64,000 nt of DNA from positions 1-64,000 of the forward strand of contig CANPUE010000001.1 in assembly GCA_947577185.1 (NCBI GenBank). The letters run 5' to 3'. This document shows positions 10,327 through 55,388 of this stretch, piece after piece. Source of the stretch: an uncultured Lachnospiraceae bacterium. Its GTDB lineage: Bacteria; Bacillota; Clostridia; Lachnospirales; Lachnospiraceae. A program made the translations under genes and the position numbers. Position 1 is the first letter of the stretch, and the number at the start of each line of letters is the position of its first letter. The notes beneath the pieces are model-generated. The model was not told the origin of the DNA and ran no database searches. It was given only the letters and a program-made list of their open reading frames with translations.

Positions 10327-10578
10327 CTCCACGATCAGATATCTTCCGTCCCCAATCTCAAAGACCTCATCCGCTTCCAAAATTTCTTCCTCATCTGCGC
10401 CTTCCATATCCACGCCCTGTTCATCAAAATAGTCCCACACCTCTTTGACGGAATTCACTACAACTGCCATACATTCCTCTAAGAAACTATCTGCCTCTTC
10501 CAGATTCTCCGCCACTCTCTCCGGGAACAGCTGTTCCTGTTTCTTCAGAAAACATTGTAATACCGCATCATCAAACAT
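10321..10578 (-). CDS. Small acidic protein of unknown function
   Basis: 85 residues, very acidic (MFDDAVLQCFLKKQEQL at the start; DMEGADEEEILEAD in the C-terminal half; ends GDGRYLIVEG). The start has AAGGGGGT upstream. I recognise the look of a conserved Lachnospiraceae protein but no characterised domain. No signal peptide or membrane segment. It lies downstream of maf on the same strand, 67 bases apart, possibly the last gene of the ppx-ppk-maf transcript. Confidence 0.75.
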   Translation of the reverse strand: MFDDAVLQCFLKKQEQLFPERVAENLEEADSFLEECMAVVVNSVKEVWDYFDEQGVDMEGADEEEILEADEVFEIGDGRYLIVEG

Positions 10579-10645
10579 AAATTTTACCCCCTTGTAATCT
10601 TTTTGTGTTTGTTGTTTTATCTTCTTTCAATGACTGTCACTTTCA

Positions 10646-39124: not shown

Positions 39125-40113
39125 GATCTGCCTTTCTTTTTGCCTTCTTTTAACTTTCCTTTGCTTTTTTCTGCCCCTGGTGACGGATACCGTTTTGGGC
39201 CTGATGTCTCCATGATTATTTTCCCCCATGCAAGCATCTTCTGATAAAGAACCATCACGATCCGTTTCCGGAACAATGGATGGCCGAATAGTTTCTGCAT
39301 TTTTAAATGCATGGAATGATTCTCGAAAGAAATCGCTCCATACCGTCTGGAAAGATATGCCAGGTCTTTCCCGCTGACGCCTTTGGGATAAAATATCGTG
39401 CCTTCTCTGAGAGAATTCCATTTTCGTATCCGATAAGAATCCGGATGGTATTTTTCCACATAAGTACCATAGGTCTCAAATTCGCTGAAGCCCGAATCCG
39501 GCAGTTGTTTACGGTCAATCGCAAAGAGTATTTTTTCCCAGAAACTGCTTCCGGGGATCTCATCATTTTGTTCTATTGCAGCGATCAGTTCCCGCATGAT
39601 CTGCCTGTCAATCAGCATATGCTCCGCTATGAACGTATAGCCGTTTTTCTTACACAGTTCCGGCAACAACTGCTGCATCGTATCAAAGTATGCTTTATGA
39701 TATCCCGTTTTCACATCAAAATAACTGCCGCCGCCTGGCGGATGCATCGTCATATTCCGTGTCGGTATCGTGTCCGCATCCCACAAAAGATATTCCTTTT
39801 CCTGCGTCATAGTACTGTAGGCCATTTTTAAAAACTGTTGAAAATACCATCCTGCCCGTTTAACCGCCCTGCCGTCGTCTGATGTTCTGTCGGCAATGAC
39901 CGCCTTTATTTTGCGCAGTGTCATTCCCGGAAAAACCGTATCCTCATCCACAAACGTGACCGGAAGCGGAAACCGCTCCACACAACGCCTTGCTTTTTGG
40001 TTCGTAATGAAAATGATTTCTTTTGGCTGTAAATATTGATTCAGCCAAAAGCAGGTTTCCCCGGCTTTTTGGACTTCGCTGTATTTACAGACGATCACAA
40101 CAGTTTCTTCCAT
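39121..40113 (-). CDS. DUF6492-like glycosyltransferase
   Basis: 330 residues from ATG 40113. VVIVCKYSEVQKAGE at the N-terminus, GWYFQQFLKMAYST and the metal site LLWDADTIP (DxD) followed by HPPGGGSYF and IAEHMLIDRQIM; this order fits DUF6492, a GT-A family found in polysaccharide loci. Basic tail. Overlaps the next GT2 by ATGA; 47 bases after the DD-motif protein. Confidence 0.85.
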   Translation of the reverse strand: MEETVVIVCKYSEVQKAGETCFWLNQYLQPKEIIFITNQKARRCVERFPLPVTFVDEDTVFPGMTLRKIKAVIADRTSDDGRAVKRAGWYFQQFLKMAYSTMTQEKEYLLWDADTIPTRNMTMHPPGGGSYFDVKTGYHKAYFDTMQQLLPELCKKNGYTFIAEHMLIDRQIMRELIAAIEQNDEIPGSSFWEKILFAIDRKQLPDSGFSEFETYGTYVEKYHPDSYRIRKWNSLREGTIFYPKGVSGKDLAYLSRRYGAISFENHSMHLKMQKLFGHPLFRKRIVMVLYQKMLAWGKIIMETSGPKRYPSPGAEKSKGKLKEGKKKGRS

Positions 40114-40160
40114 TCGTATCCCCTTTTCTGTGCGCCTGGGCACACATCCGACAACAGGAT

Positions 40161-40970
40161 TCATCCATGTTTTTTTCTGATTCGGCTTCTTAATCCATTC
40201 ACGCAATTTTGTATCCGCACAATGAGAGTGGGATTGCACTCCAATATCCCCCGCTTCACATAAATCCATGCCATCTGGAAACCATTCAGCCGCTTTCTCT
40301 TTCGAAAATCCAGATCGATGCGGTTCCGGTAACAGACTTTCACGCCGCCATCCATCCATTTTCCTCTGCGGACACCTTCTTCGTAAGGGAGGCAGTAATG
40401 TTTCACGATCAGGATTGGCTGCACTTCCTCCCGTATTTGCAAAGACCCTATTCTCTCAAAGTCCCAGACACTCCATTGTGGCGCGATGTACTTTCTCAGA
40501 AAGCATACATCCCAGATGCCCGGCTGTGTCGAGATCGCGTACGCCGTACCGGGCTTACAGCGGTAAAAATCCCCGTCCTGATCAAACCGTTCCATCGATG
40601 CGAATATATTATTTTTATCCAGACAGATATTGGCCGCATGATATTTTTTTGCTTTTTCCAGCAAAAGCGCGATCTCCTGACTCCGCACATAATCGCACAG
40701 CAGATAGTCGTCCATCCAGAGCATCACATATTCCGTTTTGACACGATCCAGACCGGCAAACAGCATATCATGCCAGTTCCCGGCAAGCACCACCACATCG
40801 TCAAATCCTTCCGCAGTCTGTGCATTCTTTATCTGGTCTGTCAAAAGCACGACCGGGTAAGCGCAGTCCGGCCAGTATTTTTTTAACAGCGTGATAAAAA
40901 TACGCCACATGTCGGCATTTTTCCAGCAGGAATACACAATAATTGATAAGTCATTTCTCTCACTTTTCAT
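40161..40970 (-). CDS. Putative glycosyltransferase (DD-motif family), operon 2
   Basis: 269 residues from ATG 40970 (start overlaps the stop of the GT-C gene by 11 bases). Paralogue of 34514-35287: LSIIVYSCWKNADMW start, KYWPDCAYPVVLLTDQ, then YVMLWMDDYLL and CKPGTAYAISTQPGIW (other copy: YKPGSAYRISARGGLW). These conserved blocks point to one enzyme family with a twin Asp active site. Soluble. Donor and acceptor unknown. Confidence 0.75.
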   Translation of the reverse strand: MKSERNDLSIIVYSCWKNADMWRIFITLLKKYWPDCAYPVVLLTDQIKNAQTAEGFDDVVVLAGNWHDMLFAGLDRVKTEYVMLWMDDYLLCDYVRSQEIALLLEKAKKYHAANICLDKNNIFASMERFDQDGDFYRCKPGTAYAISTQPGIWDVCFLRKYIAPQWSVWDFERIGSLQIREEVQPILIVKHYCLPYEEGVRRGKWMDGGVKVCYRNRIDLDFRKRKRLNGFQMAWIYVKRGILECNPTLIVRIQNCVNGLRSRIRKKHG

Positions 40971-42768
40971 TTCCAAGTTCCAGACTTTCCTGTTTCATAC
41001 GATTCCAGATTTCCGCACCGTATCTGTTTCTTAATCGTTCCGTATAATCCCAAAGCGGGTAAAAGAATTGTTTCCCGGATTCCGAGACCAGGGCAGGCTC
41101 TCCCAGCAGTCTGTCGAGTTTTGTCCTGATCTGCTCAAATTCTGATTCCCCGTATCCGTTTTCGTCCAGCCATATGCCCGCAAAACCTGCCGCACTCACC
41201 TGTTCCAGCATCTCCTCCGTCTCCATGTTCCGCAGGCATTCTTTCCATCTCTTATTTTTTACCCCGACGGCTTTTGAAGTGCTCCAGCGCAGCGTATCCG
41301 AATAGAGGGCCGGCCATTGCTGTTCATAATTCCGCATCTGATATGCATAAAAACCGTCCGTTAAGATCGGCAGCATAAAGATCATGCTATCCTCGGGAAC
41401 ACACGCCTGTATCTGTTGGACCAGACCTCGCGTATTTGAGTCGTATCTTAGATTTTCCTGATATCTGCGCGAATCAAACGGAGGTGTCTGATCCAGCAGG
41501 CCAAAGACCAGTAAGAAAGATAACAGGATGAAAAAAGCTGTCTGACTCTTCTTTCCCTTCTTTTCCGCTTTTTTATAAAGGTTTTGTAAAACCAGCGCCG
41601 CCGTCATAGTCGAAAAAGCTGCAATGAACACACTCAGCCTGTTATAAGCCCGGATCACCGTAGAAAAGATCATCCCGACAAAAATGTTAAATCCGCCGAT
41701 TGTTCCAAGCAGTACACATACAAGATTCAAAAGTCCCAGCTGTCGGAGCTGTTCGTCCATTTTCGTTTTTCCCTGAATCAGAAAGCAATACACGAGCGAA
41801 ATATAAAAACCAATGGACATGATCAGTCCTAATGTAGCCATTTTCGTCTCATTATCCGGTATCGAACGATCATATTCCGCTCTGATCCGCGCCAGAGCGG
41901 ATATCCTGTGATTCTGGACCGGCAGCAGTAACTGTGCGATCCTCATACCATACATTTCGAACTCGTTGATCCCTCTGGCGGCCACGGTTTCTTCAATCTG
42001 TGAACCGTCAGCCATTGCCGGTATGTTTACGACAAGTGATGGCAGACACATGACAAAACACAGCAAAAGAGCCATTTTAACGGAAGAAAGATCTTTCTTC
42101 TTCACCGATCCCGCCAGCCCGGAAAACAGAAGCAGGATACAGGAAAACACAATATAATAAATGTCCAAAAGACCCGCTGTAAATGCAGCCACACACGCTG
42201 CCGCAATCAGTTTTTTTTCCGCTCTGCCGCAATCCGGTCCCAGCCGGAGCTTTCCTTCCATGATCCACAACACGAGCAGGCAGATGAACGGCACCATATA
42301 GTACATGCCCAGGGACAGATGGCATTCCCCGCGGTAATAATGATAGGGAAGGAATGCGAACAAAATACAAAGCGCGGCGGCCGCCGCATTATGGATTCTC
42401 ATCATTTTCAGCGCAGCATACATACACACTGCCGCCAGTAGATAGCCGGTCAGATATAATATGTTTCCAGCCGTTCCAAAAGAATCACAACATATCGTAA
42501 GCAGCTTTAGAAACAGAGAAGTGAGTACAGAGTTTACGATTGTCTCCCTGTTTCCTTCCTCGTACGGCATCCCATATAGTTCCTCCCGCTCAATCCCGGA
42601 AACATCATTCTGTGCCTGTGTCGCCAGCCCGATGGCATCTTCCCTGTTTTCCAGCAGAACCGTGAAATCACATTCCCAGATATGAAAGAGCAGCAAAAAG
42701 CTGACTGTGACAGCCAGAATGATCTCTATGACCCATACGGTCTGCTTTTTCATCGTATTTTTATCCAA
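40960..42768 (-). CDS. GT-C-like polytopic membrane protein
   Basis: 602 residues if translation starts at TTG 42768, which has GGGGAGG six bases upstream, inside the end of the radical SAM gene; ATG 42753 is the alternative but lacks a ribosome site. About eleven membrane helices, first loop with ENREDAIGL, then GECHLSLGMYYM; a soluble C-terminal domain follows the last helix (about 415 onward). Fits YfhO/GT-C-type transferases that decorate glycans outside the membrane. Confidence 0.8.
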   Translation of the reverse strand: MDKNTMKKQTVWVIEIILAVTVSFLLLFHIWECDFTVLLENREDAIGLATQAQNDVSGIEREELYGMPYEEGNRETIVNSVLTSLFLKLLTICCDSFGTAGNILYLTGYLLAAVCMYAALKMMRIHNAAAAALCILFAFLPYHYYRGECHLSLGMYYMVPFICLLVLWIMEGKLRLGPDCGRAEKKLIAAACVAAFTAGLLDIYYIVFSCILLLFSGLAGSVKKKDLSSVKMALLLCFVMCLPSLVVNIPAMADGSQIEETVAARGINEFEMYGMRIAQLLLPVQNHRISALARIRAEYDRSIPDNETKMATLGLIMSIGFYISLVYCFLIQGKTKMDEQLRQLGLLNLVCVLLGTIGGFNIFVGMIFSTVIRAYNRLSVFIAAFSTMTAALVLQNLYKKAEKKGKKSQTAFFILLSFLLVFGLLDQTPPFDSRRYQENLRYDSNTRGLVQQIQACVPEDSMIFMLPILTDGFYAYQMRNYEQQWPALYSDTLRWSTSKAVGVKNKRWKECLRNMETEEMLEQVSAAGFAGIWLDENGYGESEFEQIRTKLDRLLGEPALVSESGKQFFYPLWDYTERLRNRYGAEIWNRMKQESLELGNEK

Positions 42769-44236
42769 TGGTTTCCTCCCCAAAATCAAGCAAATGTCCC
42801 AGCACCTTTCCTGCTGCCCGGAACAGAAACTTCACATCCTCTATACTGCGCACCCCGAAAATCCGCCTCGCGAGAAATTCCGGGTGAAAGGAAACTTTAT
42901 AGACCGCCTGCACCGCCTCTTTGATCTTTTCATTTCCGACCGGCGTCTTCATGACCGGCATGCGCTGATCATAATCCTCATAGTTTTCTGTCAGCAGCCA
43001 TCCCTTCTTCTTACATTCTTCATGCAGGGGCGTTCCCGGATAGGGAATCAGCACGGTAGCCTGCAGTGTATGCGCCCAGCCTTTGATCAGCAGTTTACGG
43101 CCCAGCCTTACGGTATTGGCGACCATCGTTTCATCTTCCCACGGATAGCCGAACATCAGGGTGATGTGCGGAGACAGCCCTGCCTTCTTCGCCTGCTTGC
43201 AGCTTTCTATCATTTCGTTTATTTTTTCGCACTTCTGTATTCGGTCAAGTGTCTCCTGGTTGGCGCTCTCCATCCCGAACAGGACAAAGCGGAACCCCGC
43301 CTCACGCATCAGTTTATAATCATCCGGGCTTACCGCGCCGAAACGCATATTGCAGTCCATGATCACTTTTTTGTGATAACCGCGTTTGATCATGCCGTGG
43401 CAGAAGGTTCTTAACCACGCCCCGGCCGGAAAGGCGCCGGAATCGTCCATAATCTCCTTCACCCCGTATTTTTCGATCAACACGCCGATCTCATCCAGCA
43501 AAAGCTCCGGGCTGCGTACCAGATATTCCGGGTAAAGAGTCGTCCAGCTGCAAAAGGTACACTTATGGTGCCAGCAGTCTCTGGCCGCCATCGTATAGGT
43601 TCCCGGCAGTCTGCTGTAGTTGCCGTTTTTTTCGCTGTACAGCCGCCACTTCGTCAGTTCCCTGTCGATCATTGGCAGGCTGTTCAGATCCTGATTCAGT
43701 TCAAACGGGCCTGTATTTTTGACGGTTCCCTCCGATCGGTACCAGATTCCTTTATCCAGCGTTTCCGGCGATAAAACGCCGTGTCTGTCCCGCAGATGAT
43801 CGCACAGGGCGGTGAGCAGAAAATCATAATTGCCTCCGGTCAGAATATAATCGACGGGACAGGCGTTCATAGACTCTTCCGGGAACGCGGTGACGTGATC
43901 TCCAACGAGCACGATCAGCGTATCCGGATTTAACTTTTTCAGTTCCTTTATGATTTCCCAGTGCATCGTTACGACAGGGGTCTTTGTCTCGATCATGACA
44001 AGGTCGAGTCCGGATTTTTGGTAAAAAGCAAGATATTTCCGGTAAGACCATCCTTCTGCGATGGCATCGTTCCATATGACCTGATGTCCTTTGCTCTTTA
44101 AATAGGTGGCCGCATACGCGGGCACCATGGGGTAGATGTATGTCGGACTGTGAAACCACTGGAACTGTCTGTTCTGCCCCAAAAGCGGGACCCCTTTATT
44201 ATTTTCAAGCGGCGGATAGGAAATTGCTACTTTCAT
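42761..44236 (-). CDS. B12-binding-domain radical SAM protein with Cx4Cx2C cluster motif
   Basis: 491 residues. The N-terminal part (VAISYPPLENNKGVP, YLKSKGHQVIWNDAIAEG, LIVLVGDHVTAFPEE) is the cobalamin-binding-like Rossmann domain; the radical SAM core has C-WHHK-C-TF-C near 220-228, four residues between the first cysteines where three are usual, then FGMESANQETLDRIQK and LMFGYPWEDE. Such enzymes often methylate or rearrange unactivated carbons; here inside a glycan operon, an unusual sugar or lipid-carrier modification is possible. Last residues overlap the next gene's start. Confidence 0.88.
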   Translation of the reverse strand: MKVAISYPPLENNKGVPLLGQNRQFQWFHSPTYIYPMVPAYAATYLKSKGHQVIWNDAIAEGWSYRKYLAFYQKSGLDLVMIETKTPVVTMHWEIIKELKKLNPDTLIVLVGDHVTAFPEESMNACPVDYILTGGNYDFLLTALCDHLRDRHGVLSPETLDKGIWYRSEGTVKNTGPFELNQDLNSLPMIDRELTKWRLYSEKNGNYSRLPGTYTMAARDCWHHKCTFCSWTTLYPEYLVRSPELLLDEIGVLIEKYGVKEIMDDSGAFPAGAWLRTFCHGMIKRGYHKKVIMDCNMRFGAVSPDDYKLMREAGFRFVLFGMESANQETLDRIQKCEKINEMIESCKQAKKAGLSPHITLMFGYPWEDETMVANTVRLGRKLLIKGWAHTLQATVLIPYPGTPLHEECKKKGWLLTENYEDYDQRMPVMKTPVGNEKIKEAVQAVYKVSFHPEFLARRIFGVRSIEDVKFLFRAAGKVLGHLLDFGEETIG

Positions 44237-44293
44237 AAAACAGATTTCTCCTTATATTGTTCTGCTCCGGATCTTACCGGATGAAAATGAAGC

Positions 44294-45253
44294 TTACCGG
44301 AGCAGTCTTCTGGCCAGCAGACCCCGCACAAAAAACAGGCCGTAACCGATATGGGTCGCGAAGATGCCTGTCAGGGAGAGAACGAACAGCCGCAGGTTAT
44401 GACAATCTCTTAAACTGTAAGCCGCAAGGCCGAAATAAACGGCCAGAACTGTCCCATACACCCACCAAAGCGGCGCACAAAGCAGGCAGACGGCCGGGCC
44501 AAAAAGTACGCCTGCCGCAAAGAGACTGGGGATAAAATACACAGGGCGCAGACTGGTCTGCGGCAGTTTTTTAGCAAAATATCCTCTATGCTTCGCATAG
44601 TTCGTGACCTGTTTTAAATGTGGTCTGAACAAAGGCCGTCTGTGATGATAGACCAAAACATCCGGGCTGTAGATCAGTTTTTTCCCTGTATTGACAATAT
44701 CCATGCACAGTTTGGTATCTTCCCCCGGATAAAAAGAGGAATCAAATCCGTGAACCTGTTCAAACACTTCACGCTTCACGATAAGATTCACACTCGGCAA
44801 ATCGTCGTCCTCACAGCGTTTCCCCGGCAGATAACGGTATGTATACTTACCGCTGCACAGGAAACTTTCATAGACTTTGCCGCCCGCAAGCTGGCGCAGC
44901 GTATCATTAGGGGCCGTTACGGCCGGCCCGCCCACGGCTCCGACTGCCGGATCTTCCAGCTGCGCAGCTGCATTTTTTAACCAGTCCTTTTCCGGCCAGG
45001 CATCATCATCTGTGAAGGCAAAAATATCGCCGGATGCATACTGTAAGGCAAGGTCTCTTTTCTGTGCAGGCCCGGTCTTCCCGCTGGGAATGATCTTTAC
45101 GGCAGGATCGGAAAACACTTCTTCCCCCGGCTCGTCCGGGAAGATCAGCACCTCAAAATCAGGATAATCCAGCTCCATATGGCGGGGAACCGCTTCCCGC
45201 ACATAATCATTGATTTCCCGTACGGGAATGATGATCGATATTTTTTTGGTCAT
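44294..45253 (-). CDS. GT2-family glycosyltransferase with C-terminal membrane helices
   Basis: 319 residues from ATG 45253 (ATGA overlap with the flippase; GGAG upstream). ISIIIPVREINDYVREAV, FTDDDAWPEKDW metal site near 85 and VNLIVKREVFEQVHGFD with FYPGEDTKLCM; then three or so C-terminal membrane helices (PSLFAAGVLFGPAVCLLC, GTVLAVYFGLAAYSL). Probably a priming or chain-extending enzyme on a lipid carrier. Confidence 0.92.
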   Translation of the reverse strand: MTKKISIIIPVREINDYVREAVPRHMELDYPDFEVLIFPDEPGEEVFSDPAVKIIPSGKTGPAQKRDLALQYASGDIFAFTDDDAWPEKDWLKNAAAQLEDPAVGAVGGPAVTAPNDTLRQLAGGKVYESFLCSGKYTYRYLPGKRCEDDDLPSVNLIVKREVFEQVHGFDSSFYPGEDTKLCMDIVNTGKKLIYSPDVLVYHHRRPLFRPHLKQVTNYAKHRGYFAKKLPQTSLRPVYFIPSLFAAGVLFGPAVCLLCAPLWWVYGTVLAVYFGLAAYSLRDCHNLRLFVLSLTGIFATHIGYGLFFVRGLLARRLLR

Positions 45254-46530
45254 ATACGCTCTCCCGCCTCCCTTTTTGCTCTGCCAGACAATAATAAGAT
45301 CAGATGAAACAGGAAAATGCACCAGAGAACCGCACCGCATATTCCCATGACGCCTTCTATGGTTTCATGATAACAGGCAGTCAGTACCAGGCAGGCGGCC
45401 AGTCCCAGAAACATCGTTGCCGCAAATGTCCTCACCAGGCTGCGCGCCAGAAAATAATTCATGAGCATCGTCACAAACGTTAACGGCGCCACAAAGAAAC
45501 AGACCGCCGGAAGATAGCGAATCGATTCCACATATTTTTGTCCAAACAGCAGGCCGATGACCTCTCTGCCAAACAGGAGCATGCCTGCCTGACAGGCCAG
45601 ACACGCGCCGCCTCCGTACAAAAATGCTTTCGCCAGGACTTTTGTGCTGTCCTCTCCTCCTGTTTCCATCTCAACGACAGCGGGAAAGAGCGCGGCCGCA
45701 GCCGCGGAAGAAACATACATTGCGATCTTGCCGATCACCATCGCACAAGAGTAGATTCCGGCTTCCGTATCGGAAAAGTAATATTTCATCAAAAGCATGT
45801 CCCCGTTTGTAAACATCACCATACAGCACTGTATCACGACAGCGCCTGTCACATATTTCCCGATCCCCATATCCTGAAAATCCGGCCGGCCGACCTGCAA
45901 AAAGGCTTCCTTCACATAGCGCCGGATCGGTTTCATGCCATATATGACAGCCGCAGCCGTTCCCAGCAAAATACCGGTCAGAACACCGTATACATTCCAT
46001 CCTGCCAGAATCAGCCCGCATCCGATCACCAGCTTGCCAAGTGTCAGCAGAAGACTCTGCATGCCCATTCTGGCAAATTCCTGCATCCCCTGCAGAATGC
46101 TGTAGACACTCTGGTGCAGGAGGGAAGCCGCCGCCAGCAGGAACAGAAAAATGAGATAACGCGCATCCTCTATGCCAAAGAAGGCACTGACCCACTCCGC
46201 TCCCAAAAGCCCCGCGGACAGCAAGAGCACCGTTATAACAAACAGAAAGCGGCTAAGAAGCCTGATCACCGCCGCCATCCCGATACGGCCTGTTCCAAGG
46301 CTTGCACGGGACGCATAATTGACCGCAATCAGTGACAAAACGGAGCCCGGCATACAACAGAGCGTCAGCAGGGAAAGCAGGGTGTTTTCCAACGCATACG
46401 CTTCTACGGAAAGCAGGCGTCCCGTTATCATCTGAAAAAAATAATTGCAGATATTTGTAAGCATCATCAGCACGAATAAAATAAAGCTGTTTTTCTCAAA
46501 TGTATTCCGACTTTGGTTTAATGCTTTCAA
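45250..46530 (-). CDS. Polysaccharide flippase (Wzx-like), operon 2
   Basis: 426 residues with about twelve membrane helices (FILFVLMMLTNICNYFFQ, FLFVITVLLLSAGLLG, MLLMKYYFSDTEAGIYS, FVAPLTFVTMLMNYFLA). The stretch TNGDMLLMKYYFSDTEAGIY is typical of PST flippases (LVGxxFSxxEaGxY type). The start codon is TTG at 46530, inside the end of the GT2 gene. Exports lipid-linked product of operon 2. Confidence 0.9.
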   Translation of the reverse strand: MKALNQSRNTFEKNSFILFVLMMLTNICNYFFQMITGRLLSVEAYALENTLLSLLTLCCMPGSVLSLIAVNYASRASLGTGRIGMAAVIRLLSRFLFVITVLLLSAGLLGAEWVSAFFGIEDARYLIFLFLLAAASLLHQSVYSILQGMQEFARMGMQSLLLTLGKLVIGCGLILAGWNVYGVLTGILLGTAAAVIYGMKPIRRYVKEAFLQVGRPDFQDMGIGKYVTGAVVIQCCMVMFTNGDMLLMKYYFSDTEAGIYSCAMVIGKIAMYVSSAAAAALFPAVVEMETGGEDSTKVLAKAFLYGGGACLACQAGMLLFGREVIGLLFGQKYVESIRYLPAVCFFVAPLTFVTMLMNYFLARSLVRTFAATMFLGLAACLVLTACYHETIEGVMGICGAVLWCIFLFHLILLLSGRAKREAGERI

Positions 46531-47293
46531 GTTTCTTTCCCATTCGTTTTAATTTGTGTACATTCCGGTAAATGCGCAGGGTGTCCCGTGCCACCATGAG
46601 GATATCTGACATTTTGATCCTGCCCCATCTGCTCTCTCTTTTAAAGACGAGCCTGACCGGCATCTCTTCGATCTTTCCCCCGCAGCGCCGCAGCAGCGCC
46701 AGTACTTCGATATCATATGCAAATCCGTCTGTGCCGACATCCTGTATCACCTGATTTAACGCCCTGGCCTCAAATAATTTGATTCCTGTCTGCGTATCCT
46801 TTATGTTCAGGCGAAACAAGACTTTGAGCATCACATAATAGCCAAGGCTCATGATCTTTCTTGGCAGAGGATACTCCACCTGTGAGTCTTTGTGCATTTT
46901 GGAACCGATCACGGCACAGGCTCCCGTCTGGCTCATTTTTTTGAGGAACGCTCTCAGGTGCATCGGAGACAGGTCAAGATCCGCATCGAGAAATGCAATA
47001 TAATCACCGGACGCATAGGCAGTCCCTTCTTTGACCGCCGCGCCTTTTCCCCTGTTTTGCACATAGCCGGCCGCGGTAATATTGTCAGTTTCCTCTGCCG
47101 CCCGCCGGATCTGCTCTTTCGTGTCATCCAGGCTCCCGTCATCTACCACAATCAACTCAAAATCTGTGCAGAACGAACCGATCAGCTTTTCCATTTCCAG
47201 CAGATTGTGATAAATGGTTTTTCCCTCGTTGTAAGCGGGAACGATCACTGACAGTTTCTTATTAAAAATATCCTCCGCATATCGATCTTCCAT
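46496..47293 (-). CDS. GT2 dolichyl-phosphate sugar synthase-like protein
   Basis: 265 residues from ATG 47293 (GGGGGAG nine bases upstream); a GTG at 47359 would overlap the upstream gene. LSVIVPAYNEGKTIYHNL, VVDDGSLDDTKE, NRGKGAAVKEG, LDADLDLSP and DTQTGIKLF are the pattern of polyprenyl-phosphate glucosyl/mannosyl synthases. Product may be the lipid-linked sugar donor for the GT-C enzymes of the same operon. Confidence 0.92.
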   Translation of the reverse strand: MEDRYAEDIFNKKLSVIVPAYNEGKTIYHNLLEMEKLIGSFCTDFELIVVDDGSLDDTKEQIRRAAEETDNITAAGYVQNRGKGAAVKEGTAYASGDYIAFLDADLDLSPMHLRAFLKKMSQTGACAVIGSKMHKDSQVEYPLPRKIMSLGYYVMLKVLFRLNIKDTQTGIKLFEARALNQVIQDVGTDGFAYDIEVLALLRRCGGKIEEMPVRLVFKRESRWGRIKMSDILMVARDTLRIYRNVHKLKRMGKKLESIKPKSEYI

Positions 47294-47351
47294 TTCCTTT
47301 TGCTCCCCCTCATTTCCCGGCATTTTCCACTCTGCAGTCTCCGCCTCTTTT

Positions 47352-48590
47352 TCATGCACCGCCTTCTGCCTTTTTCAGTTCTGCGATATAATTTCCGGCG
47401 ATCACGTCATAGTCGTATTGCCAAGCCGTTTTTTCCCCGTTATCTCTGATTTGTTCCCATAATACCTGATCAGATAACAGGCGGCTGATCTGCACTGTGA
47501 GCTGTGTGACATTCCTTTCCTCACACAGCAGGCCGTTAACACCGTCACTGATCACCTGGCCGATTCCCCCTGTACGGCTTGCCACGACCGGAACGCCCGA
47601 TGCCATCGCCTCTAAAAGCGTGACCGGCAGCCCTTCTTGATCCCCATCGGCCGCAGTGACCGAAGGAATCACGGCCACATCAGCCGAGGCATAAATCACC
47701 CGGAGCTCCTCATGCGTTTTTGCACCGAGAAAACGGATTTCACAGCTTTTTCCGGCGTCCAGTCTCTGTTCCCGCGCCAGACTCATCAATTCCTCCCGCA
47801 GCGGCCCATCCCCCGCAATCACAAGCATTGCATCCATACGGCGCATCGCTTCCGATCTCACGGCTTTTATCAGATAGCGGACTCCTTTTTTCTCCGCCAG
47901 TCTCCCGACAAAGAGAATGACCTTTCTCTCACCCTGCCCAAAATAATTTTCTATCCGGTATCGGCTTCCAAACTTTTCCCCGTCTACCCCCATCGGAATT
48001 ACAACCGGAACCGTATGTCCCATGGAAAGTCCGGCATAGAGTTCTTCCTCCATCACTTCTTTCAGGCAGTCCGAGACAGCCGTGACGCCAAAGGCTCTTT
48101 TCAGGCATCGCTGTTTTGCCTTTTTGCAGATCCCTGTATTGAAAGAGGTAACATCCCCGCCATGTCCTGTCACCAGATAGGGCTTTTTAAATAAGGACTG
48201 CACCACCCCCTGCGGGATGAGCCAATGCGCATGCACAAGATCATACGCAGGCAGTCTTCTTGCCAGCTGCCCGAAGAAAGCAAGAAACAAAAACGGAACC
48301 AACAGCGCACGAACCTTTTTCTCCCGGATTCTGGGCACGATCGCACCCGGATAACAGAGTGTCTCCCATCTGTGCAGAGGAAAGTAATGATACCGGATCA
48401 CCTTTACGCCCTCCATAACTTCTTCCTCTCTGGCGCCGGGCGCTGCAGGAACCAACACCGTAATGTCAAACGCTCCTGTCATATGGGCGGCCAGATCCAG
48501 AATAAACCCCGGTTCCGTATCGCCCTTCCATCTTGGAAAAGTGGAAGCTGTCACCAGCAGCTTTTTCTTCTCTGAAGCGTCCTGTTCCAT
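47352..48590 (-). CDS. GT4-family glycosyltransferase
   Basis: 412 residues, GT-B fold. HAHWLIPQG, GHGGDVTSF in the acceptor domain; FVGRLAEKKGVRYLI near 230, GDGPLREEL, and the E-x7-E site GDQEGLPVTLLEAMA near 325 with SGVPVVASRTGG. Soluble. Its first 125 bases overlap the GT2 frame upstream; the ATG 48590 has GGAG upstream. Confidence 0.94.
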   Translation of the reverse strand: MEQDASEKKKLLVTASTFPRWKGDTEPGFILDLAAHMTGAFDITVLVPAAPGAREEEVMEGVKVIRYHYFPLHRWETLCYPGAIVPRIREKKVRALLVPFLFLAFFGQLARRLPAYDLVHAHWLIPQGVVQSLFKKPYLVTGHGGDVTSFNTGICKKAKQRCLKRAFGVTAVSDCLKEVMEEELYAGLSMGHTVPVVIPMGVDGEKFGSRYRIENYFGQGERKVILFVGRLAEKKGVRYLIKAVRSEAMRRMDAMLVIAGDGPLREELMSLAREQRLDAGKSCEIRFLGAKTHEELRVIYASADVAVIPSVTAADGDQEGLPVTLLEAMASGVPVVASRTGGIGQVISDGVNGLLCEERNVTQLTVQISRLLSDQVLWEQIRDNGEKTAWQYDYDVIAGNYIAELKKAEGGA

Positions 48591-49605
48591 TTCCGTCTCC
48601 TTCCTGCCCCGTCTCTTTTATCCTGCTTATGGAGTCATACTCCGCACGTCTGGCATGATACTGTGCGTCCTGCAAGATCTTTCTGTTGGCCGCCAGCACA
48701 TCTGCCAAAAGTCCGATCACCAGTGTCAGAAAACCTATGATAATGAGCGTACAGCCAAGAATCAGCGACTGCACATGGCCGCCTGCCGTCCCCGCCGCGA
48801 TCAGATACAGATACCGGAATCCGATGAGCAGTCCGGCCGCTGTGGGAACAGCCGCCAGAAAAGAAAAACATTTGAGCGGTCTGTACATCATATAAGCCCG
48901 CAGAATCGTCAGCATGCTCTTTTTGACATATTCCCATGTATTGGAAAACAGTCTCGATGGGCGAAGCGCCCCGTTTGTATGTACGGGTACACTGGTGATT
49001 GCCATCCGTTCCCTCCCGGCCTGCACGATCGTCTCCAACGTGTAGGTATAATCGTTGATCACATTGATCCGCATAGCGGCCTCCCTGCTGAATGCACGAA
49101 AACCGCTGGGCGCATCCGGAATGTCCGTGTTAGAAGCCCGGCGCACGACGAAACTCCCAAAATGCTGCAGCTTCTTTTTCAAAAAAGAAAAATGTTCCGT
49201 ATCATCGATTGGCCGCGCGCCGATCACGATATCCGCTCTTCCTTCCAGGATCGGCCCGATCAGGCCTCTGATGTCTTCCGCGCAGTACTGGTTATCCGCA
49301 TCGGTGTTGACAATGATATCCGCACCGTTTCGCAGACAGCCGTCCAGTCCCGCCATGAAGCCTCTGGCGAGACCTTTATTGCATTTTTGAGAAACAATAT
49401 GGTGCACGCCGCAGTTTCTGGCAACCTGTACGGTATCATCATTACTGCCGTCATCGACAATGAGATATTCGATCTCATCGATCATGTTTCTCCCATCCGC
49501 AACGCTTTCATCCAGCATCCCGTCTAATTGTCCATGCAGGGCATTCAGCGTGATCTCCAGCGTTTCCGCCTCGTTATAACAGGGAATTTGAATCATCAGC
49601 TTCAT
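48466..49605 (-). CDS. GT2-family glycosyltransferase, membrane anchored
   Basis: 379 residues: catalytic domain with MIQIPCYNEAETLEITL, VDDGSNDDT, NTDADNQYCAEDI and the DAPSGFRAFSREAA block, then two membrane helices (VPTAAGLLIGFRYLYLI, LILGCTLIIIGFLTLVIG). The pattern is that of DPM1/DPG-synthase-like enzymes acting on polyprenyl phosphate. The last 41 residues are translated from a frame that overlaps the next gene by 125 bases and look low-complexity (GDGNGTGRF), so the natural C-terminus may be shorter. Confidence 0.9.
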   Translation of the reverse strand: MKLMIQIPCYNEAETLEITLNALHGQLDGMLDESVADGRNMIDEIEYLIVDDGSNDDTVQVARNCGVHHIVSQKCNKGLARGFMAGLDGCLRNGADIIVNTDADNQYCAEDIRGLIGPILEGRADIVIGARPIDDTEHFSFLKKKLQHFGSFVVRRASNTDIPDAPSGFRAFSREAAMRINVINDYTYTLETIVQAGRERMAITSVPVHTNGALRPSRLFSNTWEYVKKSMLTILRAYMMYRPLKCFSFLAAVPTAAGLLIGFRYLYLIAAGTAGGHVQSLILGCTLIIIGFLTLVIGLLADVLAANRKILQDAQYHARRAEYDSISRIKETGQEGDGNGTGRFREEKAAGDSFHFSKMEGRYGTGVYSGSGRPYDRSV

Positions 49606-49623
49606 GCGCGCACCTCTTTTCCT

Positions 49624-51438
49624 TTAGTCAGACGATTGCGACACAAACAGGACAAACATACCGTTCTCCATACACTTTTCACAGCTGCGCCCGATCTCAT
49701 CAAGGTACGCACTCTGCGAACCGGCGATCAGAAATGCCTGTTTGGGCAGCTCCTTTTCCAGAAAGTTCTCATCCGTTCTTTTTTCCTGCGGCGCCGCAAT
49801 GATCTCGATCTTCTGATCCCTCATGGCAAATTGAATCAGGTTTACATAAGGGATTCCTCCCTCATGCAGATAAAAGACCGGCAGATCGTATTCCATGACA
49901 TATTCATAAATCTGCAGATTGTAATAATTCACATCATTGAAAAGCCACGTATATTTCTTTTGCAGGCAGAGGATCAGTACGATCTCCACTGCCACAACAA
50001 CCCCGAATGCGGACCGGCCTGCCAGACGGTTCCGGAACTTTTTTCCTGCGAACGCACAGCCCCATACGAATAGAATCAGACAGATGCCGAAGAAAAACGA
50101 TTTTGGAAATTCTTCTCTGATGTCATAATGCCAGTCGTCCGACAGATAGCTGATACCGGGTGCAAAATACCCCTGCATAACGGATAATCCGCTATGCAGG
50201 GCATTCAAAAATGTAATTCCGGATAACACTGCGGTAAAAACCACACTCACAACCACACTTTTCACAAATTCCCGCAATCGATATCCGTTCTTACAGAAAA
50301 CTGGCAGTCCCATGCCGAGAAACACTGGCAAAAGATACTCGTTATATCTGCCATAGACGATCCCGTCCAGTCTGCCCGGTTCGATCCCGTTTACGGCCGT
50401 GACCATAAACTGTCCTGTGAAAGAAAGCAGGAGGAATAAGGCAAAATATCTCCGCTTCCCCGCTTGCAATATTCCTTTGCCAAGACGGCAGAGCGCCGGA
50501 CAGATCAGCCCAAAAGAAGCCAATACAAGATAATAAAATTTCCCTGCACAACTCAAAAATAACTTTCCCATTCCCTGCATCGAAAAAAGCTTTTTGACTT
50601 TTTCCATCTGTCCGGTATAATCATTGACAGAAAGTATTCCGGGATCCGATGCCGCATACACTGTATCCATGATTCTTTCTTTTAAAAACAGACCGCACAA
50701 CACACCCGTAAAAAAGATCACCGCCATGGCAAACAGCATCTTCCGGCAGGAAGGCCGTCTGCGGACATACAAAAACAGTACCGCCGCGGCCGCAGACACA
50801 ACGCCCACCGTGCGCATGTGCACAAAATATAAATAAAGAAGCGACAGCGCGAGCATCACCGCGCCGCTCATCTTCGGTTTTTCCATCCACAAAATAAACT
50901 GATAGCAGATCAATACATACAGAAATGTCAAGAGTCCTTCCGCCAGCGTCGTCTGCGCATAAAAAGACCAGGCCGGATAAAAGACCGCACATCCCGTGGC
51001 AAATAAAACAGCAGACCTTTTTTCCGTCAGCGCTTCCTCTGACTGTTCCGGCGCACCGCCCGGATACCATCTTTGGAAGATGCCGCAAAGCAGGAACACT
51101 GACGCACATTGTAATATCATATTAATCGTTACCGCCGCGCGGTAAGCCGTTACACTATCCCGGCAGAGCATTAAGACAGGCAGCAGGATCAGACTGTAGC
51201 CAAAGGAATAATAAGAACCTAAGGAAGCCATCTGCGACCAGTCACAGCCTGCAGTCTGCGCGGCACATGCCCAGTAGCCAAACTCATCGGGATAAATGGA
51301 AAAGCCGTAAATTTTATGTATATTCAGACAAAAAATACAGAAAATAAACAGGATGAAGGATAACAGATACCGAGAGAAGAAGTTCCTTCCTCTCCCGGAT
51401 CCTGTGTATGATGTATCATCAATATCTGACGATCGCAT
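49624..51438 (-). CDS. GT-C-like polytopic membrane protein
   Basis: 604 residues from ATG 51438; TTG 51465 is an alternative. Starts with a helix (YLLSFILFIFCIFCLNI) and the loop IYPDEFGYWACAA, an Asp-Glu pair in the position of the GT-C catalytic acid; about twelve helices follow and a short outside domain (about 510 onward). Overlaps the end of the secreted protein gene by 20 bases, so it is coupled to it. Probable lipid-donor-dependent glycosyltransferase or polymerase. Confidence 0.82.
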   Translation of the reverse strand: MRSSDIDDTSYTGSGRGRNFFSRYLLSFILFIFCIFCLNIHKIYGFSIYPDEFGYWACAAQTAGCDWSQMASLGSYYSFGYSLILLPVLMLCRDSVTAYRAAVTINMILQCASVFLLCGIFQRWYPGGAPEQSEEALTEKRSAVLFATGCAVFYPAWSFYAQTTLAEGLLTFLYVLICYQFILWMEKPKMSGAVMLALSLLYLYFVHMRTVGVVSAAAAVLFLYVRRRPSCRKMLFAMAVIFFTGVLCGLFLKERIMDTVYAASDPGILSVNDYTGQMEKVKKLFSMQGMGKLFLSCAGKFYYLVLASFGLICPALCRLGKGILQAGKRRYFALFLLLSFTGQFMVTAVNGIEPGRLDGIVYGRYNEYLLPVFLGMGLPVFCKNGYRLREFVKSVVVSVVFTAVLSGITFLNALHSGLSVMQGYFAPGISYLSDDWHYDIREEFPKSFFFGICLILFVWGCAFAGKKFRNRLAGRSAFGVVVAVEIVLILCLQKKYTWLFNDVNYYNLQIYEYVMEYDLPVFYLHEGGIPYVNLIQFAMRDQKIEIIAAPQEKRTDENFLEKELPKQAFLIAGSQSAYLDEIGRSCEKCMENGMFVLFVSQSSD

Positions 51439-52147
51439 ATGCACCCTGTCCACCTGTTGTTTCAACCGTGACAGTATTCGGATCGGTATCCGTGTCTTTC
51501 AGAACAGATACTGCCCCGCCCGGACGCACGCATACAACGGCAAATGTCCTGTCATCCTGTGCGAATGATTTCGGAATGCCTATCTTCACAGCAATCTCCG
51601 CACCGTCTGATGAAAGCAGGCTGAACTTACCGCTGCTCTTTTTGCCGATCTCGATATTGATGCAGGGCCCTACCTCTGCGCCAAGAGACTCTGCCGCACT
51701 GTCAATGACAGCTTTGGCTGCCGTACTCTTGTCTGCATCCATGTTCGTAAACCGTGCGTAAGGAACTTCCCCTGAACCGAGTCCGTAACTGCCCGCAATG
51801 TTGGACAGTCCGCTTGTGATGGCAGTCCCATTGACGCTCGTCGCAAGATAAACGCCCTGTACCGTTGATTTTGCTCCCGCTACCGTACTGGTCGTCGGGA
51901 TGGCTGCGATACTGCTGACTGCTGCCGCATCGCCGGCGCTGACTGTTGTTTCAATGGATGCATTCACGATCGCAACAACTTCGTCCTCTACAGTGACAAC
52001 CGGCTCTTCCACACTTTCCTCCGGGATTACGACCGGCGCGCTGCTTCCGGCAGAGCTGCTGCTTGCAAATACACTCATGGACGGTGCGGCAATCAAGGCC
52101 GCCGTCAGGGCTCCCGCCATCATCTTCTGAATGAATTTCGCTTTCAT
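51419..52147 (-). CDS. Secreted protein of unknown function, first gene of operon 2
   Basis: 242 residues from ATG 52147 (AGGAGAGGAGA upstream). Signal peptide 1-26 (basic start, hydrophobic core, SVFA cut site), an acidic Val/Glu linker (VEEPVVTVEDEVV), then Ala/Ser/Thr-rich repetitive sequence and a beta-rich C-terminal half (CINIEIGKKSSGKFSLL, RTFAVVCVRPGGAVSVL). No sorting signal or membrane anchor. Placed between the inverted recombination sites and the glycan genes; I do not recognise the family. It could be a secreted partner of the glycan. Confidence 0.82.
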   Translation of the reverse strand: MKAKFIQKMMAGALTAALIAAPSMSVFASSSSAGSSAPVVIPEESVEEPVVTVEDEVVAIVNASIETTVSAGDAAAVSSIAAIPTTSTVAGAKSTVQGVYLATSVNGTAITSGLSNIAGSYGLGSGEVPYARFTNMDADKSTAAKAVIDSAAESLGAEVGPCINIEIGKKSSGKFSLLSSDGAEIAVKIGIPKSFAQDDRTFAVVCVRPGGAVSVLKDTDTDPNTVTVETTGGQGAYAIVRY

Positions 52148-52182
52148 TCTCCTCTCCTCCTTATAAAATGATTTATTTGCGC

Positions 52183-52203
52183 CGCGGGACGATGGCGCCC
52201 GCG
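52183..52203. other. Leader hairpin of the secreted protein gene
   Basis: CGCGGG (52183-52188) pairs with CCCGCG (52198-52203) in a very GC-rich patch within the 92-base leader. No promoter was seen between it and the left recombination site. Confidence 0.45.
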
Positions 52204-52236
52204 CGTACGCCGCATATGGAACAAAACATGTCATTT

Positions 52237-52267
52237 CATTTCGCAAAATAAAATATTTTGCGAAATG
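52237..52267. repeat. Left inverted recombination site
   Basis: Palindrome: arms CATTTCGCAAAATA and its complement (14 bp each) around a 3-bp AAA core. Bases 52240-52266 are identical to 53584-53610 read on the other strand. This layout (two inverted arms, short asymmetric core) is typical of tyrosine recombinase core sites. Confidence 0.9.
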
Positions 52268-52322
52268 CGGATTTCAGCGCATGCCCATGCTGTTTCAAAA
52301 GGCTGACCAGATTTTTGACGGT

Positions 52323-53444
52323 CTAAACGTCCGTCTCATTCAACCGTTCCATCAAAAGCCGTTTCTGTCTGAGCGAAGTATGCACATAAAGCTGTAATGT
52401 GATGCGGATGTCCGAATGCCCCATGATCTCACTTAAACTCTTAGCGTCGAATCCCAGTTCAATACAGCGGCTCGCAAAGCAGTGCCGCAGTGCATGAAAG
52501 TGAAACCCTTCCAGACCATTTCGATCCAAAAAACGTTCAAACCGGTACTGCAGCGTACGCGGCTCGCAGTATGCGGCACGTTTTCCCGGAATAACGTATT
52601 CCTCCGGCGCTCCTTTTTTCTCTTTCAAAAACTCCGAGAGTCTGCTGGGCAGCGGTATTTCTCTGACAGAGCTGTCACTTTTTGGTTTCATAATACAGAT
52701 TTCCGTCTCCATCCCTGTTCCCGCGTGTCTGTCCACATAGGTTTTGATCCGCTGCATCGTCTTATTGACATGAATCGTTCCCCGCTCCAGATCCACGTCC
52801 TGCCACTGCAGAGCGCAAAGTTCCCCAATCCGCACGCCGGAATTGATTGCGATCAGTATGCCTGCCTGTTCCGGTGTTTCATCCAGATACAGGATCTTCT
52901 CTATTTTGCTGATCATCTCCAACGGCGGAAGGTTTTTTTCGACAGATATCTCTTCGTTTTTTCCCGCAAGAGACAGTGACGGGATCCGGTAACGGACTGT
53001 TTCATGCTCGTTTTCATAATATTTAAGCGCCTGAATTAACAGCGCATATATCGTTTTGACATAACGATGATTTAGGCCGTCATTTTTTTTGGTCATGATG
53101 AATTTACGGATCTTTTCCGCGTCTAACGATTCCGGGTAGACATCCGCCCAATAAGAGAGTAAATGCTTCTCCACGATCCTCCGGTAACCTGCATATGTGG
53201 ACGCTTTGCACTCTTTCTTTTTCTGCTCCAGCCAACAAGTGAGAATGTATCCGATCGTCCTGCCGTCTCCTTTGAAGCTTCCATATTCTTCCAGATACCG
53301 CTGCATCTTCTTTTTTGTCTCGGTGTAGCTCGCGCCATATACGGAGCGGTATTTTCTTTTTCCGCTTCCGTCATATCCGGTTACGATCCGTCCCTCCCAT
53401 CTGCCGTCTTTTCTCTGATAAATGTTGCGTCCTTTTCTTGCCAT
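52323..53444 (-). CDS. Tyrosine recombinase (phage-integrase family), probable DNA invertase
   Basis: 373 residues. N-terminal arm-binding strands (GRNIYQRKDGRWEGRIV), a SAM-like core-binding domain about 60-150 (TYAGYRRIVEKHLL), and a catalytic domain with Arg in SGVRIGELCALQW near 203, HALRHCFASRC near 315, GHSDIRI near 340 and the nucleophile Tyr in LQLYVHTS near 352. All catalytic residues are intact. AAGGAGG before the ATG. It lies entirely between the inverted 27-bp sites; no excisionase, relaxase or phage genes are near, so a resident invertase is favoured over an integrated element. Confidence 0.93.
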   Translation of the reverse strand: MARKGRNIYQRKDGRWEGRIVTGYDGSGKRKYRSVYGASYTETKKKMQRYLEEYGSFKGDGRTIGYILTCWLEQKKKECKASTYAGYRRIVEKHLLSYWADVYPESLDAEKIRKFIMTKKNDGLNHRYVKTIYALLIQALKYYENEHETVRYRIPSLSLAGKNEEISVEKNLPPLEMISKIEKILYLDETPEQAGILIAINSGVRIGELCALQWQDVDLERGTIHVNKTMQRIKTYVDRHAGTGMETEICIMKPKSDSSVREIPLPSRLSEFLKEKKGAPEEYVIPGKRAAYCEPRTLQYRFERFLDRNGLEGFHFHALRHCFASRCIELGFDAKSLSEIMGHSDIRITLQLYVHTSLRQKRLLMERLNETDV

Positions 53445-53530
53445 AATGTGCCTCCTTTTTGTTTTTTATGTGGTTTTCTTTGTGTGGTTTATTTATTTCG
53501 CTGTATCTTCCATAATTTTTCCAAAAGGGA

Positions 53531-53558
53531 TTGACTAAAATAAAAAATGCGTTAAAAT
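53531..53558 (+). promoter_or_regulatory. Outward-facing promoter-like sequence at the right end of the invertible segment
   Basis: TTGACT (53531-53536), 16-base spacer, TAAAAT (53553-53558), 26 bases inside the right site. As oriented it points to a terminator at 53645; after inversion it would point into the leader of the secreted protein gene and operon 2. Confidence 0.6.
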
Positions 53559-53583
53559 AAAAAGGGATTAGACAAAAGTCATG

Positions 53584-53610
53584 ATTTCGCAAAATATTTT
53601 ATTTTGCGAA
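53584..53610. repeat. Right inverted recombination site
   Basis: Arms TTCGCAAAATA and its complement (11 bp) around a TTT core; exact inverse of 52240-52266. Confidence 0.9.
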
Positions 53611-53644
53611 TGCAACATGTTTTTATGAAGTTTATAAGCAAAAA

Positions 53645-53676
53645 AAGCATCTCTTATACTGAGATGCTTTTCTTAA
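53645..53676. terminator. Bidirectional terminator outside the right site
   Basis: AAGCATCTC / GAGATGCTT stem with a 7-base loop; followed by TTCTTAATTTT on the plus strand and by a run of seven T on the minus strand. It insulates the nitroreductase gene from transcription leaving the invertible segment. Confidence 0.8.
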
Positions 53677-53763
53677 TTTTATAGAAATCTTTCCACAACA
53701 AATAGTAGAAATACGGCACATTATACTACATTTTTGACACGTTTCCCGACAAAAAAGATTTTA

Positions 53764-53792
53764 TTGAAACCCGTCCTTCTTTATGGTATGAT
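53764..53792 (+). promoter_or_regulatory. Promoter for the nitroreductase gene
   Basis: TTGAAA (53764-53769), 17-base spacer, TATGAT (53787-53792), 64 bases before the ATG. Confidence 0.65.
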
Positions 53793-53856
53793 ATACAAAA
53801 TATTGAAAGCAGATACTATACATCAGAAGTACATCATATCCATAAGGAGGTATCTT

Positions 53857-54399
53857 ATGACAGCTACAGAATGTATCAAAGGGCGCAGAAGCATCCGCAG
53901 ATTCAAACCTGACAAAATCGAACCTGAAGTACTGGCTCAGATCGTGGAAACCGCATCCTATGCGCCGAGCTGGAAAAATACGCAGATTGCCCGTTATATC
54001 GCAGTGGAAGGCGAGCTGAAAGACCAGATTGCCGCACAGGGAACAGATCTTTTTCCAAACAACGGCAGAATCATCGAAAATTCACCTATGCTGATCGCTG
54101 TCACCGTGATCAAAAACAGATGCGGTTATGAGAGAGACGGTTCTTTTACGACTCCCAGAAAAGATACCTGGCAGATGTACGATGCCGGTATTGCATCCCA
54201 GACATTTTGTCTGGCGGCATATGAGAAAGGAATCGGCTCCGTTATCCTTGGTATCTTTGATCAGGAAAAGATCGAATCTCTGCTGCAGTTACCGGAAGAC
54301 AGAGAGCTTGTTGCTTTGATCCCCATCGGTTATCCGGATGAGGCGCCTGTGGCTCCCAAAAGAAAATCCGTGGAGGATTTATTATCGTTTCAATCATAA
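53857..54399 (+). CDS. Nitroreductase-family FMN oxidoreductase
   Basis: Short single-domain member, 180 residues from ATG 53857 (AAGGAGG seven bases upstream). IKGRRSIRRFKPDKIE near the N-terminus binds FMN phosphate; SYAPSWKNTQIARYIAV, DAGIASQTFCLAAYEKGIG and the C-terminal PIGYPDEAP are standard. Reduces unknown substrates with NAD(P)H. Stand-alone with own promoter and terminator. Confidence 0.93.
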   Translation: MTATECIKGRRSIRRFKPDKIEPEVLAQIVETASYAPSWKNTQIARYIAVEGELKDQIAAQGTDLFPNNGRIIENSPMLIAVTVIKNRCGYERDGSFTTPRKDTWQMYDAGIASQTFCLAAYEKGIGSVILGIFDQEKIESLLQLPEDRELVALIPIGYPDEAPVAPKRKSVEDLLSFQS

Positions 54400-54404
54400 A
54401 CAGT

Positions 54405-54438
54405 AAAATAGAAGGGATATCCTCTCTTCTATTTTTTT
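54405..54438 (+). terminator. Terminator between the nitroreductase gene and pyrB
   Basis: AAAATAGAAG pairs with CTTCTATTTT, followed by more T. It lies six bases after the nitroreductase stop codon, 33 bases before the pyrB ATG, and could also attenuate pyrB. Confidence 0.8.
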
Positions 54439-54470
54439 GAGTACATTCATTGAAAGGAGTATTATTGCCA

Positions 54471-55388
54471 ATGAGACATTTAATGAACCCGCTTGATTTC
54501 ACGGTCGAGGAACTGGAAACGCTCTTTGCCCTTGCAAACGACATTGAGGCGCATCCTGATAAATATGCACACGCCTGTGAGGGGAAAAAACTGGCCACCT
54601 GTTTCTACGAGCCGAGCACACGCACAAGACTGAGTTTTGAATCCGCCATGCTGGGATTGGGCGGACAGGTGCTGGGCTTCTCGGATGCCGGTTCCTCTTC
54701 CGCCTCGAAGGGAGAAAGCGTTTCCGATACAATCCGCGTCATCTCCTGCTTCGCTGATATCTGTGCCATGCGCCATCCCAAGGAAGGCGCACCGATGGTG
54801 GCCGCCGGCAGGTCTTCCATTCCGGTCATCAATGCGGGCGACGGCGGACACCAGCACCCGACACAGACATTGACCGATCTGCTCACGATCCGCTCTTTGA
54901 AGGGCCGTCTCGATCATTTCACGATCGGCTTATGCGGCGATCTGAAATTCGGCCGGACCGTGCATTCCCTGATCAATGCCCTGGTGCGCTATCCCGGCAT
55001 TCATTTTACGTTTATCTCTCCGCCGGAATTAAGGGTTCCCGACTATATCACAGACCTTCTGCGCGAAAAGAAAATTCCTTACAACGAAGTGATACGGCTC
55101 GAAGCCTGCCTGCCGGAACTGGATCTGCTTTACATGACCCGTGTCCAGAGAGAACGTTTCTTCAACGAAGAAGACTATGTACGCCTGAAAGATTTCTATA
55201 TTTTAGACAAAAACAAACTGTCGCTTGCCAGGAAAGATATGCTCATTCTGCATCCGCTGCCGCGTGTCAATGAAATTTCCGTGGAGGTGGATGATGACCC
55301 GCGCGCCGTTTATTTCAAGCAGGTGCAGTACGGTGTTTATGTCAGAATGGCCCTGATTCTGACGCTGTTGGATATTCATGTAGACTGA
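54471..55388 (+). CDS. pyrB: Aspartate carbamoyltransferase, catalytic subunit
   Basis: Carbamoyl phosphate + aspartate to carbamoyl aspartate, pyrimidine synthesis; 305 residues. Carbamoyl-phosphate site [14 protein letters not shown] near 50, HPKEGAP, the aspartate-domain [11 protein letters not shown] near 130 and [11 protein letters not shown] near 260. Start at ATG 54471, with AAAGGAG about 11 bases upstream. Followed by pyrI after 43 bases; the pair will form the regulated dodecamer. Confidence 0.97.

Follow-up and report, generated by a model that had tools for sequence, protein, structure and literature searches.

The segment at positions 52237–53612 of the window (the whole stretch of 64,000 nucleotides of DNA from an uncultured Lachnospiraceae bacterium that was analysed) is very probably a self-contained promoter-inversion cassette, which would be OFF in the orientation of the assembly. 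In the mechanism proposed from the sequence, the recombinase encoded inside the segment would act on the two flanking sites, each of them predicted to have a 5-bp spacer flanked by half-sites in inverted orientation. As this spacer is oriented oppositely in the two sites, recombination would be expected to invert the segment and not to excise it. The promoter carried within the segment would always read away from the recombinase. As assembled, it would pass the right site, meet a terminator-like hairpin and leave the 12-gene operon OFF; once the segment is inverted, transcription would go through the left site and the leader and turn the operon ON. The parts and their arrangement are present in the window, and the conservation of a cassette family, private spacers that match within each locus and both orientations at other operons were observed among relatives.

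The two arms at positions 52240–52266 and 53584–53610 (27 nt each) are 100% reverse complementary with 1317 nt between them, exactly as an earlier note on this DNA had claimed when it described two identical and opposed 27-bp sites lying 1.3 kb apart. On the operon side, the left recombination site (52237–52267, no strand) forms a palindrome of 14+3+14 with AAA at its centre, and its 25-bp core at 52240–52264 reads TTCGCAAAAT-AAAAT-ATTTTGCGAA. The right site (53584–53612, no strand) has its 25-bp core at 53586–53610, a palindrome of 11+3+11 centred on TTT, with the spacer opposite in orientation to that of the left site. The near-palindromic and directional character that had been attributed to the sites was retained, and only the length of the core, given earlier as 3 bp, was revised: family comparison defined the direction-giving spacer as 5 bp (AAAAT/ATTTT) with 10-bp half-sites on either side. 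The spacer AAAAT is common to the window and its four closest relatives (L036–L039). A search tolerating up to 3 mismatches located the pattern of the site at these two places only in the 2.49-Mb, 67%-complete assembly, where the reversed control pattern gave no match; the palindrome is not a common element of this assembly, which the note had proposed to check. At up to 2 mismatches the site was detected in 5 of 397 genomes including its own, the other four corresponding to L029–L032 and L034. No Rfam match was obtained for the region 51300–54600 up to E=1.

A family of related cassettes was collected from 77 genomes of the window's genus, from named genomes (best 80 of 549 confirmed loci), from viral contigs (best 80 of 126) and from plasmid and phage records (13 of the matches). 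Removal of near-identical loci reduced the collection from 170 to 159, which were divided into a family of 134 loci and a set of 25 integrases that are more distant. Both 450-bp flanks were available for 113 of the family loci, the other 21 being without a full flank. With this division made by identity and coverage, and chosen after the repeat scores had been seen, flanking inverted repeats with a score of 16 or more were found at 93/113 family loci, against 8/600 cross-locus pairs and 1/20 distant integrases, so that the flanking repeats are not explained by chance. The remaining 20/113 family loci have no inverted repeat at the cut of 16. The distant set includes L146–L151, which are of low coverage or borderline (five score 10 or less and one has a short flank), as well as L164 with a repeat score of 17. 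Statistics within the segment were obtained from 99 segments, i.e. the family loci with a repeat score of at least 16, some of them with shorter flanks.

Between the sites lies one intact gene for a tyrosine recombinase of 373 aa (52323–53444, minus strand; Pfam PF00589 and PF14659), and the enclosure of a single intact gene of this kind, as reported in the note, was confirmed. The match to PF00589 (phage integrase) assigns the protein to the tyrosine type and not to the serine recombinases, to which Hin belongs. An N-terminal strand-and-helix domain, a SAM-like domain and a catalytic domain were distinguished, the first one with three strands and a helix at residues 8–54 in an AlphaFold model of mean pLDDT 80.2. 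The closest solved structures are those of the Tn1549 integrase, both by sequence profile (6en0, E 1.2e-26) and by Foldseek (6emy, E 9.2e-13). Pfam AP2 matched weakly (E 0.0019) in 1 of 18 aligned family members.

A candidate arm-type motif, CCGTCAAAAATCTGGTCA, is located at positions 52301–52322 (minus strand), between the stop codon of the recombinase and the left site. Of the 99 segments, 44 have CCGTCA in the sense of the recombinase no more than 90 bp ahead of its start (expected 0.4) and 45 have it between the stop and the next site (expected 0.9), against 0 (expected 0.8) and 4 (expected 2.0) loci, respectively, for the antisense motif. Many members of the family therefore display same-sense repeat motifs near both ends, for which Tn916 offers a parallel. 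The window carries the downstream copy only; the upstream counterpart present in many relatives was not found there. By analogy with integrases, the N-terminal strand-and-helix domain may bind the arm motif. The promoter of the recombinase was not recognised, as inward consensus scores are at shuffle level in the 99 family segments.

The spacers were examined by locating the best site on each side independently of the other side, and at 54 of 126 loci both sides reached a half-site score of 16.5 or more. In all 54 loci the two 5-bp spacers are identical in inverted orientation, and in none of them as direct repeats, which favours inversion over excision. Between loci the spacers match in 0.7% of pairs, with 46 different spacers among the 54 loci. 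Within loci, spacers agree at 100% versus 95% for the half-sites. Such matching is expected if strands are exchanged between the two sites of a locus. At looser cuts the spacers match in 60/62 and 70/72 loci; the two with non-matching spacers at the cut of 16 (L046 and L245) were taken as wrong site picks, since each has another inverted repeat (the locus of L046 is L024). More than one locus was found in 14 genomes, seven of which have at least two readable cassettes, and all spacers differ within each of these seven.

The candidate promoter of the window is a sigma-70-type sequence, TTGACT-16-TAAAAT (53531–53558, plus strand; consensus 10/12), placed inside the segment between the start of the recombinase and the right site. 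It is divergent from the recombinase and reads outward across the right site. Jointly with one other it is the best of 8 promoter-like sites in the region, where shuffles give 5.3; it is a match by consensus only and would not stand out in the window alone. The case for it is made by the family: an outward promoter of at least 11/12 was detected in 55/99 segments and an inward one in 1/99, dinucleotide shuffles giving 1.0, and the best outward promoter stays below 11/12 in 44/99. Just outside the right site lies a terminator-like hairpin (53643–53671, plus strand). As the promoter faces this hairpin in the assembled orientation, the operon should be OFF, and in the inverted orientation the promoter would read into the operon. 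Among the 93 loci, 29 have such a hairpin no more than 250 bp past the promoter-side site (expected 2.6) and 64 have none there; past the other site it was found in 12 (expected 1.6). The earlier note mentioned neither the promoter nor the hairpin opposite it, and it was equally silent on the likely OFF state, on the wide family and its private spacers, and on paralogous operons that have a fixed promoter instead.

To the left of the segment, 12 genes on the same strand follow each other in a run (38084–52147, minus strand), in line with the 12-gene glycan operon described previously; of six of these genes run against Pfam, three are glycosyltransferases and three have no match. The leader and ribosome-binding region (52151–52218, minus strand) resemble the leader of operon copies that have no cassette. 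Gene 1 (51419–52147) encodes a secreted protein of 243 aa with no Pfam match, which is kept beside the cassette in relatives. It is followed by gene 2 (49624–51465), coding for a large membrane protein with no Pfam match that we take to be "PMT". According to Pfam, genes 3 and 5 (48466–49605 and 46496–47359) are family 2 glycosyltransferases and gene 4 (47352–48590) is a group 1 glycosyltransferase. Gene 6 (45250–46530) was judged by eye to encode a flippase-like membrane protein and has no Pfam match. Genes 7 to 12 (44294–45340, 42761–44236, 40960–42789, 40161–40976, 39121–40359 and 38084–39421), also on the minus strand, are defined as reading frames only. To the right of the segment lie a gene of the nitroreductase family (Pfam) and another gene, presumably pyrB.

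Operon copies that have no cassette were investigated in further loci around homologues of operon gene 3, with 20 taken of 62 places with a family 2 glycosyltransferase (GT2). The operon head (secreted protein, membrane protein and GT2) was recognised in 12 of these 20, and in none of the 12 was a recombinase of the cassette family found within the stretch taken. In 11 of the 12, the box CTTGAAAANATATT occurs 85–196 bp before the aligned start, in most cases followed by TAGCAT-type repeats; the box was not found within 400 bp of the window operon. The divergent gene is an HTH_3 regulator in both cassette-less loci examined for it (L277 and L283). One of the 12 loci comes from the window's own genome (G000:C3): this second copy of the operon has a fixed promoter and a divergent HTH regulator and no cassette. 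In a comparison of six sequences, the window operon and the cassette-less operons resemble each other in the ribosome-binding region and in part of the leader, and L036, a cassette operon, is without most of the leader. Related operons are thus headed by two alternative kinds of control module, one fixed and probably regulated, the other invertible. As one genome has both a fixed-promoter copy and a paralogue with the cassette, regulated control can be compared directly with random control on the same genes.

The genes next to the cassettes were inspected in the 99 segments with a simple reading-frame rule for assigning the target side. A head-to-tail gene is present on the 3' side of the recombinase only in 46 segments, on the promoter side only in 16, on both sides in 29 and on neither in 8. 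Twenty proteins beside cassettes, hand-chosen and mostly encoded by first genes, were compared with Pfam; they include Wzz-type chain-length proteins, a sugar transferase, a glycosyltransferase and a LytR-CpsA-Psr protein, and also leucine-rich surface proteins, LytTR response regulators, HTH and TetR regulators, a TadZ-like protein and a helicase. One of the 20 has no Pfam match and two have matches below the curated cut-off only. Surface and regulatory functions thus recur among the targets of cassettes and are not the sole ones. At locus L075 (9489–11081), the inverted repeat is some 180 bp long and extends into the 5' ends of two large genes that diverge. Their products, of 2079 and at least 912 aa, are similar at the N-terminus, as though the segment selected one of two alternative surface proteins. 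Relatives about 29–33% identical were found on seven Enterococcus plasmid records (L234–L240) with flanking inverted repeats scoring 17–26, and the neighbours on two annotated plasmids among them include genes for WxL-domain proteins and signal peptidase. One cassette is shared with its 1-kb flanks at 99.9–100% identity by records of Butyricicoccus pullicaecorum, Blautia glucerasea and Agathobaculum massiliense, and a faecal phage scaffold shares one of these flanks fully and the other at 87% over 528 bp. This cassette (L121, L124, L126 and L246) has recently moved horizontally.

Both orientations were observed in the family. One pair of orthologous loci only, L082 and L093, whose recombinases are 84.9% identical, has both flanks swapped around the segment; one of the exchanged genes is HTH-like (89.3% over 56 aa), the other encodes a large surface protein (66.9% over 172 aa). 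Other cross-flank pairs were left out for duplication within a locus or because only one flank was concerned (L061/L093, L066/L123, L075 with itself, L082, L091 and L093, and L082/L091). No near-identical pair in opposite orientation was found among the 110 loci compared by their flanks, i.e. those with a repeat score of at least 15, viral contigs and plasmids included. A second operon type in the window's genus has its target on the 3' side of the recombinase in L218, L220, L223 and L225 and on the promoter side in L227, L228, L230 and L231; these targets are 46–74% identical, and the other flanks there are not homologous. The target in question is TnpB-like, two of the eight having been run against Pfam and both matching Cas12f1-like_TNB, and its promoter is seen in both orientations. 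In the alignment of all eight, the RuvC catalytic residues, at what we take to be the motif positions, look substituted, so this target may be a nuclease-dead regulator.

At the operon type of the window itself, all nine distinct loci have the same OFF orientation, and L054 is a tenth by flank similarity only. This uniformity is the main result against an active switch at the window operon. The single orientation that the note had suggested looking for in all relatives was therefore encountered for this operon type and not in the family as a whole, where L082 and L093 differ. Its wider proposal, an invertible and directional segment heading a glycan operon as a likely phase switch, is mostly borne out by the parts and the family, the exception being that no opposite orientation was seen at this operon type.

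The 9/9 loci in OFF orientation, with recombinases ranging from 100 down to about 39% identity, would be expected if the cassette had once inverted and was now fixed OFF in the lineage. We regard such a fossil switch as unlikely, the recombinase being intact and the sites identical over 27 bp. Furthermore, consensus assemblies give the majority orientation only, hence a minority ON state would go unseen. Far less credit is given to the reading of the palindromes as transcription terminators or protein operators with no role in recombination, to which the length of each palindrome and its capacity to form a hairpin might point. This reading was rejected, since only two copies exist in the 67%-complete assembly and since the sites vary between loci and match within each locus, private spacers included; such repeats are also seen in only 1/20 of the more distant integrases.

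The segment might also be a small mobile element, its sites being ends for excision, integration or transposition and any control of the operon incidental. The Tn1549 transposon integrase as nearest solved structure is in favour of it, and so are the placement of cassettes before unrelated operons, the existence of the window's operon type without a cassette and the near-identical cassette found with its flanks in three named genomes and a phage scaffold. It is nevertheless very improbable: excision and integration are disfavoured by spacers that are inverted, not direct, in 54/54 loci, the recombinase is the sole gene of the segment, outward promoters are enriched, and the window cassette stays beside the same operon in relatives. 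The Tn1549/Tn916-type integrases supply the closest solved structures and share the N-terminal strand-and-helix domain seen in the model. Unlike these elements, the family displays inverted sites with identical spacers placed as promoter modules, and the window segment has no cargo and no sites arranged for excision.

The promoter-inversion cassettes as a whole are probably widespread and as yet unnamed portable phase-variation modules, although this generalisation is made with less confidence than the reading of the window segment. Such modules would combine an integrase-type recombinase, a divergent outward promoter and inverted sites with a private 5-bp address, and they would replace fixed regulated promoters before surface-glycan, surface-protein and signalling operons. 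If so, the spacers would insulate sister modules from each other, and one cell could therefore hold several independent switches. In gut Clostridia the family would bring many additional predicted switches, recognisable by the signature of recombinase, outward promoter and private spacer, and it would provide recombinases paired with their sites as a natural collection.

Bacteroides is the best-known case of phase variation in surface glycans. In a survey of a defined gut community, fewer invertons per genome were reported for Clostridia-like Firmicutes (PMC11892184). The same source links a clostridial inverton group (139) to a nearby tyrosine invertase group (35) and proposes a possible co-evolution of repeats and invertases. 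Like the window family, group 139 is clostridial and has a tyrosine-type recombinase near the inverton; unlike it, the two examples given with coordinates are about 255 bp long, too short to hold a recombinase, in a comparison made by description (PMC11892184). The RecV switches of Clostridioides difficile resemble the window in that a tyrosine recombinase inverts short segments upstream of surface operons, but there one recombinase serves several remote switches, whereas each segment of the window family has its own (PMC5903667). Closer in design are Hin of Salmonella and an 844-bp invertible segment of Providencia stuartii that encloses its recombinase; in both, as in the window, the recombinase lies inside the segment thought to be inverted and near genes for surface structures. 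The Providencia segment differs by its 14-bp imperfect repeats, and neither a family nor private spacers are described in the part of the article at hand (PMC5903667). The cassette family was not found described in the literature searched, which includes the accessible parts of PMC5903667, PMC11892184 and PMC8748976 and has preprints and most subscription papers outside its scope. The kind of switch is known; the variant, with its integrase-type recombinase, divergent promoter, private spacers and alternation with fixed promoters, appears to be new within this literature.

A second self-carried switch of another type was noticed in the window's own genome (L053, 8307–10615; G000:C2). Inside its segment, a sequence resembling the sigma-28 consensus (TAAA-N15-GCCGATA, 10541–10566) points away from flagellin; it is weak evidence, as the pattern has 3 matches in the genome versus 2 for the control. 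A 193-aa recombinase of the integrase family (9910–10491, plus strand) lies between exact inverted repeats of 31 bp (9819–9849 and 10585–10615), and the switch adjoins csrA and flagellin genes that read away from it.
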